Shown piece by piece: positions 42,773 to 49,480 of a DNA stretch of 64,000 nucleotides (positions within the stretch are counted from its first letter, which is position 1; each line of letters begins with the position of its first letter). Position numbers and translations under genes: made by a program. The notes beneath the pieces were generated by a model. The model was not told where the DNA came from and made no database searches. It worked only from the letters and a program-made list of their open reading frames with translations. The stretch is from the NCBI GenBank assembly GCA_009838175.1, contig VXSB01000056.1, positions 1-64,000 of the forward strand. The letters are read 5' to 3'. Source of the stretch: Chloroflexota bacterium (GTDB lineage Bacteria; Chloroflexota; Dehalococcoidia; Lucifugimonadales; Lucifugimonadaceae).

Positions 42773-43660
42773 ATGGGCATCAACAAATGCATTGACCTAC
42801 TTAAAGAAGGCCAACCCTTCTACGCAACCCACACACCTGAACTCACCTACGACGCCGGCGTCGAATTGGCTCAAACCTGGGCCGATATGATCCTCATCGA
42901 CTTCGAGCACCGCCACTTCGATGTCGGAGGCTTGGGCGATTTTATGAAGGGGTTGAAGGCAGGCGGTCCAACCCCCAGCGGGCACCTCACGCCCACCGTC
43001 GTCACTACGCTTCCGCACAATGCAATCTCTGTCGATGAAGTCCGACATAACGCATGGCAGATGCGCCACGCGCTCACGACGGGCGTCCACGGTCTCCTTC
43101 ACACTCACGCACGCGATCCCGAAGCAGTGAAGTGGTTCGTGGCTGCTTGCAGATATCCATTCCAGAAACTCGCCCGCGACGTCATCCCTGAAGGTCTACG
43201 CGGCGGTGGAGGGCAGGGCATACCCGCAGAGATATGGGGCCTCTCTCCACGCGAATACGTCGAGATCGCTGATCCGTGGCCGCTCAACCCAAACGGTGAG
43301 CTTCTCCTCGGACTCAAGATCGAAGACCGACACAGCCTACCTAACGCTGACGAGATCGCATCAGTGCCCGGCATCGGCTTTGCAGAATGGGGTCCCGGCG
43401 ACATGGGAATGTCACACGGCAACCCCGACGCGCACGACCCGCCGTACCCCGACTATATGGACCACGCCCGCGACACCATTAAAGGTGCTCTCGACAAGGC
43501 CGGCGTTGGCTTCTACTCCAGTTGGGCTGACGACAACATGACGCAAGAAGAGCGCATCGACCACCTCATCGACAACGTCGGCGTAAAAATGATGGGCGCA
43601 CCCAACAAAGAATGGGCCGACTACGGACGCGCTAAGACCGGACGGACGATGCCGGTTTAA
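42773..43660 (+). CDS. HpcH/HpaI-type aldolase, copy 1 of 2
   Basis: A 295-residue aldolase-like protein of the HpcH/HpaI superfamily, longer than the usual 250. ADMILIDFEHRHFDVGGL is the acid/His region, GVHGLLHTHARDPEAVKWFVAACRYPF the middle turn, and GLKIEDRHSLPNADEIASVPGIGFAEWGPGDMGMSHG the metal-binding Glu and Asp block. An extra segment (VIPEGLRGGGGQGIPAEIWGLSPREYVEIADPWPLN, in pieces) distinguishes this subfamily. A 204-base gap with a repeat separates it from its near twin at 43865. It probably cleaves a 2-oxo-4-hydroxy acid to pyruvate. Confidence 0.83.
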   Translation: MGINKCIDLLKEGQPFYATHTPELTYDAGVELAQTWADMILIDFEHRHFDVGGLGDFMKGLKAGGPTPSGHLTPTVVTTLPHNAISVDEVRHNAWQMRHALTTGVHGLLHTHARDPEAVKWFVAACRYPFQKLARDVIPEGLRGGGGQGIPAEIWGLSPREYVEIADPWPLNPNGELLLGLKIEDRHSLPNADEIASVPGIGFAEWGPGDMGMSHGNPDAHDPPYPDYMDHARDTIKGALDKAGVGFYSSWADDNMTQEERIDHLIDNVGVKMMGAPNKEWADYGRAKTGRTMPV

Positions 43661-43705
43661 GGTGAACCGCGAACTCTTCACCGCCTACTGTCAAATGCCA
43701 TTTGT

Positions 43706-43745
43706 TCCCTCTCCCTTGTTGGGAGAGGGTTAGGGTGAAGGTGCG
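43706..43745. repeat. Dispersed palindromic repeat, family A, copy 2
   Basis: TCCCTCTCCC-ttgtt-GGGAGAGGG followed by TTAGGGTGAAGGTG, the inverse orientation of copy 1. It lies between the twin aldolase genes, so each may have its own transcript; a TAAAGT box at 43805-43810 follows. Confidence 0.7.
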
Positions 43746-43864
43746 CCTTAAACTCACGCCTTCTCATAAACGCACCCAAATCAACCGTACAGCCCATAAC
43801 CCGTTAAAGTATGGAAACGCGCATCCAAGCGCATTGCAAAATCCGTACCGAAGGAATCACACCT

Positions 43865-44752
43865 ATGGGCATCAACAAATGCATCGACCTCCTCAAGGAA
43901 GGGCAGCCTTTCTACCACACTCCTACGCCCGAACTCAGTTATGACGCCGGACGCGAGATGGCCCAGACTTGGGCAGACATGGTCCTCATCGATTTCGAAC
44001 ACCATCATTTCGATATCGGAGGTCTTTATCAGTTCATGAGAGGTCTCAAAGACGGCGGCCCCACACCGAGCGGTCACCCCACACCTGCGGTCGTGACTTC
44101 TTTGCCTCACAGCGCATACTCGGTCGAAGAGGTGCGGTACAACGCCTGGCAGATGCGCCACGCCCTCACCACCGGCATTCATGGTCTGCTCCACACCCAC
44201 GTACAAAGTCCCGAAGCAACTAAATGGTTCGTCGCCGCCTGCCGATACCCCTTCCAGACCATCGGCACCGACATTATCCCCGAGGGGATCCGTGGAGGAG
44301 GAGGGCAGCGCCAACCCGCAGAAATTTGGGGCGTCGCCCCCCGGGAATACGTCCAAATCGCCGACCCCTGGCCAATGAACCCCAACGGCGAACTCATGCT
44401 CGGCCTCAAGATCGAAGACCGCCATTGCCTACCGTTCGCCGAGCAGACCGCCGCCGTCCCGGGCATCGCCTTCGCTGAGTGGGGACCCGGAGACATGGGA
44501 ATGTCGTTCGGTGACCCGGATGCACACGACCCGCCGTACCCCGACTTCATGGATAACGCCCTCAACATCGTCAAGACGGCGTTGGAAAACAACAACATTG
44601 CCTTCTATGCCGCATGGCAAGACGAAGAGATGAACAACGAGCAACAGGTCGACCAGCTCATCGATGGACTCGGCTGCAAGATGATCGGTGCATTGACCAG
44701 AGACATCGCCGACTACGGACGCGCCAAAACCGGCCGCACAATGCCGGTCTAG
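43865..44752 (+). CDS. HpcH/HpaI-type aldolase, copy 2 of 2
   Basis: A 295-residue twin of 42773-43660, with the same N-terminus (MGINKCIDLLKEGQPFY), the same catalytic block (GLKIEDRHCLPFAEQTAAVPGIAFAEWGPGDMGMS) and the same last residues (ADYGRAKTGRTMPV). ATG at 43865 is chosen since it reproduces the twin's start and has GAAGGAATC upstream; the earlier ATG at 43811 adds 18 unmatched residues. A TAAAGT -10-like box lies 55 bases upstream. The two may act on related substrates or as one mixed oligomer. Confidence 0.85.
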   Translation: MGINKCIDLLKEGQPFYHTPTPELSYDAGREMAQTWADMVLIDFEHHHFDIGGLYQFMRGLKDGGPTPSGHPTPAVVTSLPHSAYSVEEVRYNAWQMRHALTTGIHGLLHTHVQSPEATKWFVAACRYPFQTIGTDIIPEGIRGGGGQRQPAEIWGVAPREYVQIADPWPMNPNGELMLGLKIEDRHCLPFAEQTAAVPGIAFAEWGPGDMGMSFGDPDAHDPPYPDFMDNALNIVKTALENNNIAFYAAWQDEEMNNEQQVDQLIDGLGCKMIGALTRDIADYGRAKTGRTMPV

Positions 44753-44760
44753 CACACATT

Positions 44761-44786
44761 CGTCATTCCCGCGAAGGCGGGAATCT
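44761..44786. repeat. Dispersed palindromic repeat, family B, copy 5
   Basis: CGTCATTCCCGC-gaag-GCGGGAATCTAG, a good eight-base inverted repeat, eight bases after the aldolase stop. It may end the aldolase transcript before the structured leader that begins near 44845. Confidence 0.65.
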
Positions 44787-44846
44787 AGTGCGGTGGTAGT
44801 TCTCGAACCCCATCGCACCTGCAGAAGCGTGGTAAACTTCAAGCCA

Positions 44847-45014
44847 TCTGAACCAAGCCGCCGATATAGACGAGACATCTGCAAAACCCACCTCCTTGCG
44901 CTGATAAGGAGGAGCACTTCATTAAATCGGCTGTAGGCGAAGGTTCAGACACCCTCTTGCTTGCATAGCCCAGGCGGGGAGACTGGAGTTTTGTAACGAT
45001 CTCAGCAAAGGAGG
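44847..45014 (+). promoter_or_regulatory. Structured mRNA leader, candidate riboswitch-like element
   Basis: TAAACT at 44833-44838 predicts a transcript starting near 44845. Helix 1: TCTGAACC (44847-44854) with GGTTCAGA (44942-44949). Helix 2: GCC+GCCGAT (44857-44865) with ATCGGC+GGC (44926-44931, 44936-44938). Helix 3: CCTCCTT (44891-44897) with AAGGAGG (44906-44912), loop GCGCTGAT. The strand CCTCCTT plus GCTGA (44900-44904) also pairs with TCAGC (45002-45006) plus AAGGAGG (45008-45014), twelve pairs covering the Shine-Dalgarno of the next gene. I do not recognise a known riboswitch class. Confidence 0.55.
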
Positions 45015-45022
45015 TTGAGGAA

Positions 45023-45502
45023 ATGACAACTCAATCTACCGGAAGCCTGAAAGGCCGCATCGCGGGCATTCTGATCGTCCTCATCGCCCTGCCGGTACTC
45101 GCATTGGCGCCAGCATATTTAGCCTCCCGCTTTATGATGCAATCGCCAAGCTTGGACATCGAGCAGATAAGTTTTCAGCCGTCGGCGGCAGATTTATCTG
45201 ACGAGAAGAGCATCCAGAGTAGTATCACGACTGTCGACGAAGAGCCTATTCTGCCAGATGAAGGATTTGCGATAATCGTCGACTCTGTGACGTCTGATGA
45301 TCCTGCCTTTGGCGATTTTTCGGGAGAAGTTGTGTTTCTGGACACACTATCGGACGATGATTGCATCTTCACGCTCCGTTTTTTTGAATCGAGCAACGGC
45401 GAAGCAGAGACCTTTACGGGGCACATCAAGATCGCCGACGAAGTCAGGTCAGACGATCGCAACTGCGGCATCTTTTTCAAGGACGACTGGGAAGCGCAAT
45501 AA
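45023..45502 (+). CDS. Small membrane-anchored protein of unknown function
   Basis: A 159-residue protein I do not recognise. Residues 1-12 are polar, residues 13-36 form one hydrophobic segment (IAGILIVLIALPVLALAPAY), and the rest is acidic and should lie outside the cytoplasm. The C-terminal half, with FTLRFFESSNGEAETFTGHI and two cysteines (DDDCIFTLRF, DRNCGIFF), has the same pattern as the protein at 46212, where CGLTLHL and CALKF hold the cysteines. A possible disulfide is implied. It has a strong AAAGGAGG Shine-Dalgarno, which the upstream leader can mask. Confidence 0.75.
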   Translation: MTTQSTGSLKGRIAGILIVLIALPVLALAPAYLASRFMMQSPSLDIEQISFQPSAADLSDEKSIQSSITTVDEEPILPDEGFAIIVDSVTSDDPAFGDFSGEVVFLDTLSDDDCIFTLRFFESSNGEAETFTGHIKIADEVRSDDRNCGIFFKDDWEAQ

Positions 45503-45557
45503 GCCAACGTCATCGTGATTACCGCAGTTGCGATTATGAACTGCAGAGAAACCCTAC

Positions 45558-46154
45558 ATGCTTAGGCGATTGGGCAAAGTGATCGCTTCCATAACTGCGA
45601 CGGCGGGAATCGTCATCGCACTTCTGGTCGTCATAGCAGCTGTCGGACAACGACATTCGTCACAGCTGGCTCGGTCAGGCGCTAATGCCGACATCTACGT
45701 GATGAGCGGCTACACCGGATCTCCGATAACTTGCCACCGAGACAACAACGGGATCACGATCGAGACCGACAATGGCCAGCTCCGCGCTGTCATGGTAGGA
45801 CGCGAAGGATTAGAACAATGCATTGAGGGGTATAAATCTGGACGCATCCCATTCGATCCTAGGAACTACATTGGACGCTATGAAGCCGGATACGTCATTT
45901 GGGAAGGCGTCGATCACGAGAACATCTACCACTGGGGCGTCCCCGACGAATGCGCGCCACACTACCAATTCAAGCAGAAGAGCCATCCTTGGTTAATTGA
46001 CGCCTTAGGTCTAGTCGAGACCATAGAAGTGACTTTCGCATGGACCGGCACAGACGCTGAATGGGGTACATGTTCGGTTGCCCGCGAAAAACAGATCGCC
46101 GAGATTGACCTGTCCGAATTCGAAATCGCCACGACAGATAACGCTCCAAACTAA
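45558..46154 (+). CDS. Small membrane-anchored protein of unknown function
   Basis: A 198-residue protein I do not recognise. Residues 9-31 are a hydrophobic anchor (VIASITATAGIVIALLVVIAAV) and the remainder looks extracytoplasmic, with four cysteines (ITCHRDN, LEQCIEG, DECAPHY, WGTCSVA) that could form two disulfides. It contains a conserved-looking aromatic block, GYVIWEGVDHENIYHWGVPDE. It lies 55 bases after 45023-45502, with a weak Shine-Dalgarno (GAGA). It shares the single N-terminal helix plus cysteine-pair plan with both neighbours, so the three may form one surface complex. Confidence 0.72.
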   Translation: MLRRLGKVIASITATAGIVIALLVVIAAVGQRHSSQLARSGANADIYVMSGYTGSPITCHRDNNGITIETDNGQLRAVMVGREGLEQCIEGYKSGRIPFDPRNYIGRYEAGYVIWEGVDHENIYHWGVPDECAPHYQFKQKSHPWLIDALGLVETIEVTFAWTGTDAEWGTCSVAREKQIAEIDLSEFEIATTDNAPN

Positions 46155-46211
46155 CGCGCTAAAATACAGACATCTCGCCACTATCTATGCCGATCAGAGG
46201 ACTAAGCCACG

Positions 46212-46739
46212 ATGAAATCGGGCTCCAACGCCCCCAGGCTTCGCCGTTTCACAGCGGTCTTGGCAGTGATTGCCGCGTTAATAGTCACCGCATTGACACC
46301 CTCATTGGTCGTCTCGCTGGTACTCACACAAGATACCGTCGACCAGGTCAAGCCCACGGAACAAGCTAAAACCATCGACGTTACCGACATCGATGAAAAC
46401 GGCACAGTGATGTATGCCGTTTCATCTAGCTATAGGCAACCTGGGTTTGAGACAGAATCTCTCACAGAAGCCTTACGCGGCTCGGATCTGATTAAAGTTA
46501 CGTTTCAGGACTCCGATTCATCTTCACACCCAGTGAACCAAGGAGCCAACGAAGGATGCGGTTTGACATTGCACCTGAGTTCAGACGATCGATATGATGC
46601 TGGCACCAAAACTTACGTCGGATACATCAGAGTAGAAGACGGGGAACCCGAAGCCATTATCTCAACCAACATCAATTGCGCCTTGAAGTTTGTCGAGAGC
46701 GAAACTGATTACGAATTGGAACCAGTCGATCTCCCATAA
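46212..46739 (+). CDS. Small membrane-anchored protein of unknown function
   Basis: A 175-residue protein I do not recognise. A basic start (KSGSNAPRLRRF) is followed by one hydrophobic helix (about residues 14-38) and an acidic extracytoplasmic domain with two cysteines (EGCGLTLHLS and NINCALKFVES). The order of motifs (hydrophobic strand with Cys, a threonine-glycine strand YVGYIRVEDGE, Cys strand) matches the 45023 protein (FTGHIKIADE, NCGIFF), so they are probably distant paralogues. A TAAAAT box at 46160-46165 gives it a possible own promoter, and GAGGAC precedes the ATG. Confidence 0.73.
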   Translation: MKSGSNAPRLRRFTAVLAVIAALIVTALTPSLVVSLVLTQDTVDQVKPTEQAKTIDVTDIDENGTVMYAVSSSYRQPGFETESLTEALRGSDLIKVTFQDSDSSSHPVNQGANEGCGLTLHLSSDDRYDAGTKTYVGYIRVEDGEPEAIISTNINCALKFVESETDYELEPVDLP

Positions 46740-46860: not shown

Positions 46861-48009
46861 ATGAAACTAATCCTCGCAACTACCGTCATCCTCACCGCCG
46901 CAACCTTCCTCCTCACTGCCTGCACCTCCGATAGCGGTGCCAATGAGATCGCTGTCGAACGCGCCCAAGCCACTGCAGAGGCTGCAATCATCGATCGCAA
47001 CAATGCCATCTCGGAACGAGACGCAGCCATCCAACGTGCCGACCAAGCCGAAAGGTCCGCGAACCGCCTCGCCGCCATCAAGGAACGCGGGGATGTCGTC
47101 TGCGCAACTGGCAACGACACTCCCGGATTTCACTCGCTCGACGCATCAGGGAAGAGCATCGGTTTCGATGTAGACCTCTGCCGTGCCGTCGCAGCTGCAG
47201 TCCTCGGTGATGCCGATGCCGTCGAGTTCAGGTTCACTGACCTCGTTGAACGCGGTCCCGCGTTGCAATCCGGCGAGATCGACCTCATGAACCTCACAAC
47301 TACATGGACATCGACTCGCGACGTAGCCTGGGGCAACTTCGCGCCCGTAATGTTCTACGACGGGCAGGGATTCATGGCGACGAAAGCGTCTGGAGTAACG
47401 TCCGCCCTCGAACTGGGAGGTGCAGCAGTATGCGTAACTGCTGGAACCACCACAGAGCTGAATCTAGCTGATTACTTCCGCCAGAACAATTTGGACTACT
47501 CCCCAACAGTCTTCGAACAATCGGATGTCGCTTTCGACTCCTACACAGCAGGGCAGTGCGACGCGTTTACCACTGACCGATCGGCGTTGGCATCGCTGTT
47601 GACGACGCTTCCCAACCCGGACGAACACTTAATCCTCCCCGAAATCGTCTCTGAAGAACCGTTGACCCCTGTCATCCCCCACGGCGACGAAGCCTGGTTC
47701 GACGTCGTCAAGATCGTCATGGCCGGAATCATCTACGCCGAGGCATACGGTATCGACAGCACTAACGTTGATGCCATGGCCGCCGGCGACAACATCAAGG
47801 CGAAACGACTGCTAGGTTCTGAAGGCGACTTTGGCCAAGAAGCTCTCGGCCTCGAGAAGACATTCATGCAAGACGTGATCAAGCAAGTGGGAAACTACGG
47901 GGAAATCTACGAGCGCAACCTAGGCGTAAACGGGATTGGGTTGCCACGTGAGGGCCGCAACGACCTATGGATCAATGGCGGCCAGATATACGCCGCACCA
48001 TTACGGTGA
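46861..48009 (+). CDS. Polar amino acid ABC transporter substrate-binding lipoprotein
   Basis: A 382-residue extracytoplasmic binding protein of the AapJ/general amino acid type. The lipobox is FLLTAC (Cys21). Residues 28-70 are a charged, Ala-rich helix (AQATAEAAIIDRNNAISERD and onward), probably a stalk, before the binding domain starts at IKERGDVVCATGND. Family blocks: GKSIGFDVDLCRAVAAAVLGD, LVERGPALQSGEIDLMNLTTTWTS, GQGFMATKASGV, AVCVTAGTTTELNLADYF. It binds amino acids and delivers them to the permeases at 49600-52429. Its closest relative is the next gene. Its own Shine-Dalgarno is weak. Confidence 0.92.
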   Translation: MKLILATTVILTAATFLLTACTSDSGANEIAVERAQATAEAAIIDRNNAISERDAAIQRADQAERSANRLAAIKERGDVVCATGNDTPGFHSLDASGKSIGFDVDLCRAVAAAVLGDADAVEFRFTDLVERGPALQSGEIDLMNLTTTWTSTRDVAWGNFAPVMFYDGQGFMATKASGVTSALELGGAAVCVTAGTTTELNLADYFRQNNLDYSPTVFEQSDVAFDSYTAGQCDAFTTDRSALASLLTTLPNPDEHLILPEIVSEEPLTPVIPHGDEAWFDVVKIVMAGIIYAEAYGIDSTNVDAMAAGDNIKAKRLLGSEGDFGQEALGLEKTFMQDVIKQVGNYGEIYERNLGVNGIGLPREGRNDLWINGGQIYAAPLR

Positions 48010-48244
48010 TGTCCGTTTCCCAACTCGCTTTATCCTCTCAGTACTGCCCGAACTTACCTCCGATATCCCTCTCCTACAAAGCAGATAACGCTCGATTCGC
48101 CTCGTCTAATCAGCCAGCGATTATTTCGCGACCATGTATCACTGATTAACCCTCACTTCGCGTAAACTTGATTCCATAAGCGTGCATCGATATGTTTCTG
48201 AGAACATTGCTCGCGAAGCAAAAAACGGAAGGGACACACATCAC

Positions 48245-49480
48245 ATGAAAACAAAACTGCTGATCGCAATGCTCGCGATGGTATCGGTCTTCGCAGTCGC
48301 ATTCAGCGCCTGTACCGATGACTCGGGACCAACCGACGCCGATCTCCAGAACGCGCAAGCTACCGCTTCAGCCGCACAGTCGGCACTTAGTGACGCTAAC
48401 GCACGAGCGGATGCTGCCGAAGCCCGCGCTGACGAGGCCGACAAGATGGCCGAAGACGCCAAAATGATGGCCGATGAAGCAATGATGTCGATGGAAGACA
48501 CCGCCGGTCGACTCGCCCAGGTCCAAGACCGTGGACATATCATCTGCGCCAGCCGTAACGATGTTCCGGGATACGGCTCTCTAGACGACGCCGGACGAAA
48601 CGTCGGCTTTGACATCGACCTCTGCCGAGCACTAGCAACCGCCGTCCTAGGCGATCCTGAAGCGATCGAGATCCAGTTCATCACCGCTGCTGAGCGTGGC
48701 CCGACCATCCAGTCCGGTGAAGTCGACATGCTTGTCCGAACCGTCACCTGGACCACCAGCCGTGACGCGCAGTGGGGCAACTACGCTCAGACCATGTTCT
48801 ACGACGGACAGGGCTTTATGGTCCCAGCCGACCTCGGCGTCACATCCGCGTACGAACTCGGCGGCGCCGCCGTCTGTGTAACCAGCGGTACCACCACCGA
48901 ACTCAACATGGCTGACTTCTTCCGCCAGAACAACCTCGAATACAACCCCAACGTCTTCGAGGACACGGATGTCGTCCTTGACGCATACGAGTCCGGCCAA
49001 TGCGACGTCTTCACAAATGACCGCTCGCAGCTTGCCGCACTTAGAACCGCTCTGCCGAACCCCGATGACCACGTCATCCTCCCGGAGACGATCTCCGAAG
49101 AGCCTCTCGGCCCCGTAGTGCCCCATGGTGACGACCAGTGGTTCGACATCGTCAAGACCGTCATGTCCGGCTTGATCTACGCCGAGGCCTACGGCATCAA
49201 CAGCGGAAACGTTGGATCTGTAGCTGCTGGCGACAACGTCAAAGCCAAGAGACTGCTCGGTACTGAAGGAACGATCGGCCAAGAGGCCCTCGGACTCTCC
49301 GAGACCTTCATGCAAGACGTGATCAATGCCGTCGGAAACTACGGCGAGATCTACGACCGCAACCTCGGACCCGACGGAATCGACCTCCCCAGAGAGAACG
49401 GTCGTAACGCTCTCTGGTCCAACGCTCCTTGCACCGACTGCCCCAAAGGCGGCCAAATCTACGCAGCACCACTGCGCTAG
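48245..49480 (+). CDS. Polar amino acid ABC transporter substrate-binding lipoprotein
   Basis: A 411-residue paralogue of 46861-48009. ATG at 48245 has GGAAGGGA upstream and begins a signal peptide ending in AFSAC (lipid Cys). The Ala-rich stalk is longer than in the sister protein and strongly helical (ADAAEARADEADKMAEDAKM, then MMADEAMMSMED). The binding domain has GRNVGFDIDLCRALATAVLGD, RGPTIQSGEVDMLVRTVTWTT and AVCVTSGTTTELNMADFF. A C-terminal pair of cysteines (APCTDCPKGG) is absent from the sister. A strong hairpin terminator follows, so binding-protein mRNA should exceed permease mRNA. Confidence 0.93.
   Translation: MKTKLLIAMLAMVSVFAVAFSACTDDSGPTDADLQNAQATASAAQSALSDANARADAAEARADEADKMAEDAKMMADEAMMSMEDTAGRLAQVQDRGHIICASRNDVPGYGSLDDAGRNVGFDIDLCRALATAVLGDPEAIEIQFITAAERGPTIQSGEVDMLVRTVTWTTSRDAQWGNYAQTMFYDGQGFMVPADLGVTSAYELGGAAVCVTSGTTTELNMADFFRQNNLEYNPNVFEDTDVVLDAYESGQCDVFTNDRSQLAALRTALPNPDDHVILPETISEEPLGPVVPHGDDQWFDIVKTVMSGLIYAEAYGINSGNVGSVAAGDNVKAKRLLGTEGTIGQEALGLSETFMQDVINAVGNYGEIYDRNLGPDGIDLPRENGRNALWSNAPCTDCPKGGQIYAAPLR

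Follow-up and report, generated by a model that had tools for sequence, protein, structure and literature searches.

The leader studied here lies in a 64,000-nucleotide stretch of DNA (the window) that is carried by an 84-kb contig of the 2.64-Mb genome of a SAR202 member of the Chloroflexota. It is placed between an HpcH/HpaI-like aldolase gene (43862-44752) and a gene for a 159-amino acid protein (45023-45502); the downstream gene and all of the leader features described below are on the + strand. A preliminary description of this DNA proposed that the leader is a riboswitch-like element that controls membrane proteins of unknown function. The product of the gene at 45023 agrees with this in having one N-terminal hydrophobic (membrane) helix and no match in Pfam or NCBIfam. 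It has 52-57% amino acid identity to its orthologue in species G003 (SAR202 bin127), which is in the same genus. An AlphaFold model of the protein had a mean pLDDT of 43, a quality insufficient for a fold search, and a protein search of a genome contig collection gave no match. The gene is one of three small membrane-protein genes (at 45023, 45558, and 46212) that form a variable island at 45023-46739; their products have 52, 58, and 28% amino acid identity to G003, where the neighboring genes mostly have 80-95%. Five other genomes of the genus have the same aldolase gene followed by different small genes, or by paralogues with unrelated leaders.

The sole close homologue of the leader that we found is in G003, upstream of the same gene. 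The two leaders match at 84% of positions over the 180 nt preceding the start codon. Elsewhere in the synteny with G003, the regions that precede orthologous genes, taken as the last 180 nt upstream of each gene or the whole gap where this is shorter, match at 27-77% of positions, and the leader is the most conserved intergenic stretch among those compared. Conservation continues into the gene, where 28 of the first 30 nt are identical, and identity drops further downstream, a pattern which indicates that the leader and the first codons act as a single conserved unit. The 35 substitutions between the two leaders fall 14, 11, and 10 per codon phase, no frame is open through the leader in both species, and the two share no ORF with a good start. 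This absence of three-base periodicity and of a common open frame argues that the leader is not an overlooked coding region.

Searches of more distant genomes gave no further copies. A covariance model of the leader (R1) run on 76 family, 250 order, and 393 class genomes recovered only the genome of the window and G003. DNA patterns from the leader had the G003 contig as their sole relevant match in the genome contig collection, with two others in unrelated organisms, and none in a viral contig collection. In the other five genomes of the genus (G001, G002, G004, G005, and G006), no relative was apparent by eye upstream of the corresponding or paralogous genes, and the best E value from an unfiltered model search of these loci was 0.11, with mere fragments of the model matched. 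The expectation that homologous leaders could be collected, and that the leader would be conserved next to this gene in relatives, was therefore borne out by G003 but by none of these other genomes. Because the leader is missing from the other five genomes of the genus and from all further family, order, and class genomes searched, it may be young and weakly selected.

Near the 5' end of the leader, a -10-like TAAACT (44833-44838) with a TG extension (TGGTAAACT) is part of a block, AGCGTGGTAAACTT, that is identical in G003. A promoter scan of the leader gave no consensus -35/-10 pair, and for this reason we treat the transcription start that had been predicted from the element as inferred. The nested helices described at 44847-44949 do fold as claimed, with a minimum free energy of -34.5 kcal/mol and a z score of -3.6 (-2.3 in G003); 1 of 200 shuffles was equally stable. 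We refer to the fold with this 5' domain as fold L. Helix P1 closes the domain by pairing CTGAACC (44848-44854) with GGTTCAG (44942-44948), and all seven pairs are identical in G003. P2 pairs 44857-44865 with 44926-44931 and 44936-44938 and is less constant. Its inner six pairs are kept in G003, one U-A having become U-G, and its outer three pairs include one G-C to A-U double change (44857:44938) and an adjoining broken pair. Other pairings are slightly favored in this region of G003 (-63.7 vs -60.9 kcal/mol with P2 forced). P3 pairs CCTCCTTG (44891-44898) with TAAGGAGG (44905-44912), and its eight pairs are all identical in G003. It contains the local hairpin of CCTCCTT (44891-44897) with AAGGAGG (44906-44912) that had been noticed earlier as a decoy, since the same AAGGAGG does occur a second time as the Shine-Dalgarno sequence. 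This decoy hairpin is the sole CCTCCTT-N4-14-AAGGAGG in the 2.6-Mb genome, and likewise in G003. None of 20,000 shuffles had the arrangement within 30 nt, and a looser search that accepted either order and spacings of up to 60 nt found it in 0.02%.

The Shine-Dalgarno sequence (45008-45014) is 8 nt upstream of the ATG and belongs to a 14-nt run identical in G003. Hairpins that enclose the Shine-Dalgarno sequence and start codon and are formed with early codons are a recognized kind of structure. We found a 10-bp start hairpin like this (45010-45019 with 45030-45037 and 45039-45040) that is invariant in both species and was not part of the preliminary description. Its 5' strand buries GGAGG, its 10-nt loop holds the AUG, and its 3' strand contains codons 3-6. 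What sets it apart from other hairpins of this kind is the large, bistable, conserved domain upstream of it. The start hairpin has an energy of -11.8 kcal/mol and z scores of -3.5 in the window and -3.2 in G003, none of 200 shuffles was as stable in either species, and it ranks second strongest among the 38 start regions of the window. From this stability and position we infer that the start hairpin restrains translation, acting as a default OFF state, and this is the best-supported step of the mechanism that we propose. A putative protein or small RNA might open or lock the hairpin, which would make the leader a translational operator or sRNA target. Consistent with this, the energy of the hairpin alone would hold translation low, and several unchanged stretches of the leader are unexplained by the core helices alone. 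We consider an operator or sRNA target unlikely.

A second long-range fold, fold X (44872-45003), uses the same bases as fold L and was also missing from the preliminary description. It has four helices (44872-44875 with 45000-45003, 44881-44887 with 44988-44994, 44892-44899 with 44974-44981, and 44901-44903 with 44971-44973), the strands of which are GAGA/TCTC, GCAAAAC/GTTTTGT, and CTCCTTGC-CTG/CAG-G-GNGGAG. Its z score is -3.3, with 1 of 200 shuffles as stable, and -2.4 in G003. The 22 core pairs are present in both species, two of them with one-sided compatible changes and none broken, but such retention, here as in P1 and P3, is partly circular because the core helices were selected as formed in both species. 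The best energies of L and X are -61.3 and -62.0 kcal/mol in the window and -63.8 and -63.7 kcal/mol in G003, which are gaps of 0.7 and 0.1 kcal/mol. Shuffles in which both the 5' domain and X were equally stable numbered 0 of 1000 for the window and 5 of 1000 for G003. In about a fifth of the G003 sampled structures the decoy hairpin occurs together with the GCAAAAC/GTTTTG helix, so exclusion between L and X is less strict in that species. Computed folding of growing transcripts gave L first and X after the 3' sequence appears. The 5' domain may therefore fold first as L during transcription and rearrange to X once the 3' strand emerges. The balance between L and X, perhaps with the anti-Shine-Dalgarno stretches at 44891 and 44952, could then make the start hairpin easier or harder for a ribosome to open. 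Under both L and X, 68-100% of the ensemble has the start hairpin, which leaves coupling of an L/X switch to translation hypothetical.

The alternative structure named in the preliminary description was a different one. There, CCTCCTTgcGCTGA pairs with the Shine-Dalgarno sequence in 12 pairs, which in letters are seven pairs, an interior loop, and five pairs. We reject this helix. Forcing it in the window gave -51.2 vs -62.0 kcal/mol, and forcing its seven-pair core in G003 gave -55.3 vs -63.8 kcal/mol. It falls short of the best folds by 8-11 kcal/mol, none of the 1000 structures sampled for each species contained it, and three of the five pairs in its GCTGA/TCAGC extension are broken in G003. 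What survives of the proposed two-fold switch over the Shine-Dalgarno sequence is the pair of competing folds, now L and X, and a buried ribosome-binding site. As to the on/off control claimed for that site, the start hairpin buries the site and neither L nor X clearly frees it.

If these folds made up a translational riboswitch that senses a ligand or ion and belongs to a new and very narrow class, its aptamer would be the 5' domain and binding would shift L against X. The nested 5' domain, the near-equal energies of L and X in both species, the ribosome-binding site inside a hairpin, and long unchanged runs such as CCCTCTTGCTTGCATAGC are all compatible with this. The leader resembles translational riboswitches with Shine-Dalgarno sequestration (PMC7266159) in that a folded leader precedes the gene, the ribosome-binding site is in a helix, and there are alternative folds. 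It differs from them in belonging to no Rfam family, in being linked to a single gene in just two species, in offering no hint of a ligand from the protein at 45023, and in having a start hairpin that the computed L and X both leave closed; the switch helix first proposed has failed as well. The earlier statement that the leader matches no riboswitch class agrees with our search of the window with Rfam 15, where no family reached its gathering threshold, and a relaxed Rfam search of the leader from the window and G003 gave sub-threshold matches or none. We think a riboswitch rather improbable here. Similarly doubtful is a genus-restricted new class of SAR202 translational switch in which two near-isoenergetic long-range folds, composed of duplicated anti-Shine-Dalgarno (44891 and 44952) and Shine-Dalgarno (44905 and 45008) segments, control the start hairpin of the fast-evolving membrane protein in answer to a putative marine signal. 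A ligand is no likelier a trigger than a trans-acting protein or RNA, and no likelier an explanation than simple constitutive damping.

Temperature might also shift the balance between the folds. The cspA leader has structure that extends into the coding region, and so does the leader described here. Our leader also resembles the E. coli cspA mRNA thermosensor leader (Giuliodori et al. 2010, cited in PMC6239172) in being long and having rival folds. Between 4 and 37 °C, the computed L-minus-X energy goes from -1.2 to +2.2 kcal/mol in the window and from -0.5 to +2.0 kcal/mol in G003. The sign flips between 10 and 20 °C in both species, so L would be favored in the cold and X in the warm, but the parameters are extrapolated and unreliable far from 37 °C and the two sequences are not independent. 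Moreover, cold G003 is dominated by folds that have the decoy hairpin but lack P1, the cost of opening the Shine-Dalgarno sequence is nearly alike in L and X, and the gene at 45023, unlike cspA, is apparently unrelated to cold shock. A cspA-type leader that responds to temperature is thus very unlikely.

The leader has a second stretch, CCCTCTTGC (44952-44960), that is complementary to both the Shine-Dalgarno region and the decoy AAGGAGG and is in an 18-nt run identical in G003. Usage of this stretch differs between the species. In the L ensemble, its pairing with the Shine-Dalgarno sequence amounts to 22% for the window and 0% for G003; in the X ensemble, its pairing with the decoy amounts to 74% for G003 and 0% for the window. 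Each of the pyrimidine stretches at 44891 and 44952 is able to pair with the Shine-Dalgarno sequence or the decoy, which recalls attenuator logic. These repeated Shine-Dalgarno-like and anti-Shine-Dalgarno segments with alternative pairings are like those of erm translational attenuators (PMC5118997). Applied here, ribosome-mediated attenuation would have the first AAGGAGG serve a short leader peptide from an ATT at 44921, with a stalled ribosome freeing the second AAGGAGG. The segment order (anti-SD, SD, anti-SD, SD) suits such a scheme, AAGGAGG is 6-8 nt upstream of the ATT in both species, and the first substitutions past the ATT are mostly at third codon positions. Against it, ATT is rare as a start, the AAGGAGG is inside a hairpin, and the ATT frame is not kept, being 15 codons long in the window and 24 in G003. 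Unlike the erm leaders, this one has no conserved leader peptide: no ATG, GTG, or TTG uORF with a Shine-Dalgarno sequence is common to the window and G003, and there is no overall three-phase bias. We therefore regard an erm-like mechanism as highly improbable. The leader has no intrinsic terminator on the + strand, which a transcription attenuator would have, and one terminator-like match on the - strand.

The leader might also be an ordinary conserved UTR, with folds that are by-products and conservation kept for a promoter, for mRNA stability, or by chance. Its narrow distribution fits this, as do the pairing data. No core-helix pair is preserved through changes on both sides, in a comparison of two sequences, and pairs are kept no better than with random placement of the substitutions (P about 0.26 over the whole folds L and X; P 0.80 for the fold with the 12-pair helix). 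With two homologues and this result, the case for a structured element comes from conservation relative to the baseline and stability relative to shuffles. These are what speak against an ordinary UTR, since each of the three structures is more stable than nearly all shuffles, two of the three compete for the same bases, and conservation extends over some 180 nt and into the first codons. We judge an ordinary UTR to be an unlikely explanation. Our preferred reading, to which we give a probability of about 0.5, is a structured and non-coding 5' leader, about 180 nt long and specific to this lineage, which lowers translation of the gene at 45023. Together, these data show that the leader is real and conserved, and it probably exerts cis-acting, structured translation control, as a candidate of unassigned class. 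If so, the SAR202 bacteria, which are abundant in the ocean and barely cultivated, would have a regulatory RNA here, and its position at a rapidly changing membrane-protein locus would be a clue to the signal that this locus answers. As it stands, the leader is a sound candidate for structure probing and not evidence of a new riboswitch class.

Several other features were seen around the leader. Neighboring duplicates flank the variable island: on one side are two adjacent aldolase-like genes (42773-44752) with 73% amino acid identity to each other, and on the other side are two solute-binding-protein genes (46861-49480). A palindromic intergenic repeat, CGTCATTCCCGCGAAGGCGGGAATC, is at 44761-44788, and a similar one follows the orthologous gene in G003 (at about 1360-1390 of locus L022). 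At about 1285-1320 of the same G003 locus, downstream of the G003 gene, is a different and unrelated CCTCCTT...AAGGAGG palindrome (CCTCCTTGATGCCCCTTGGGCATCAAGGAGG) that is apparently a repeat.
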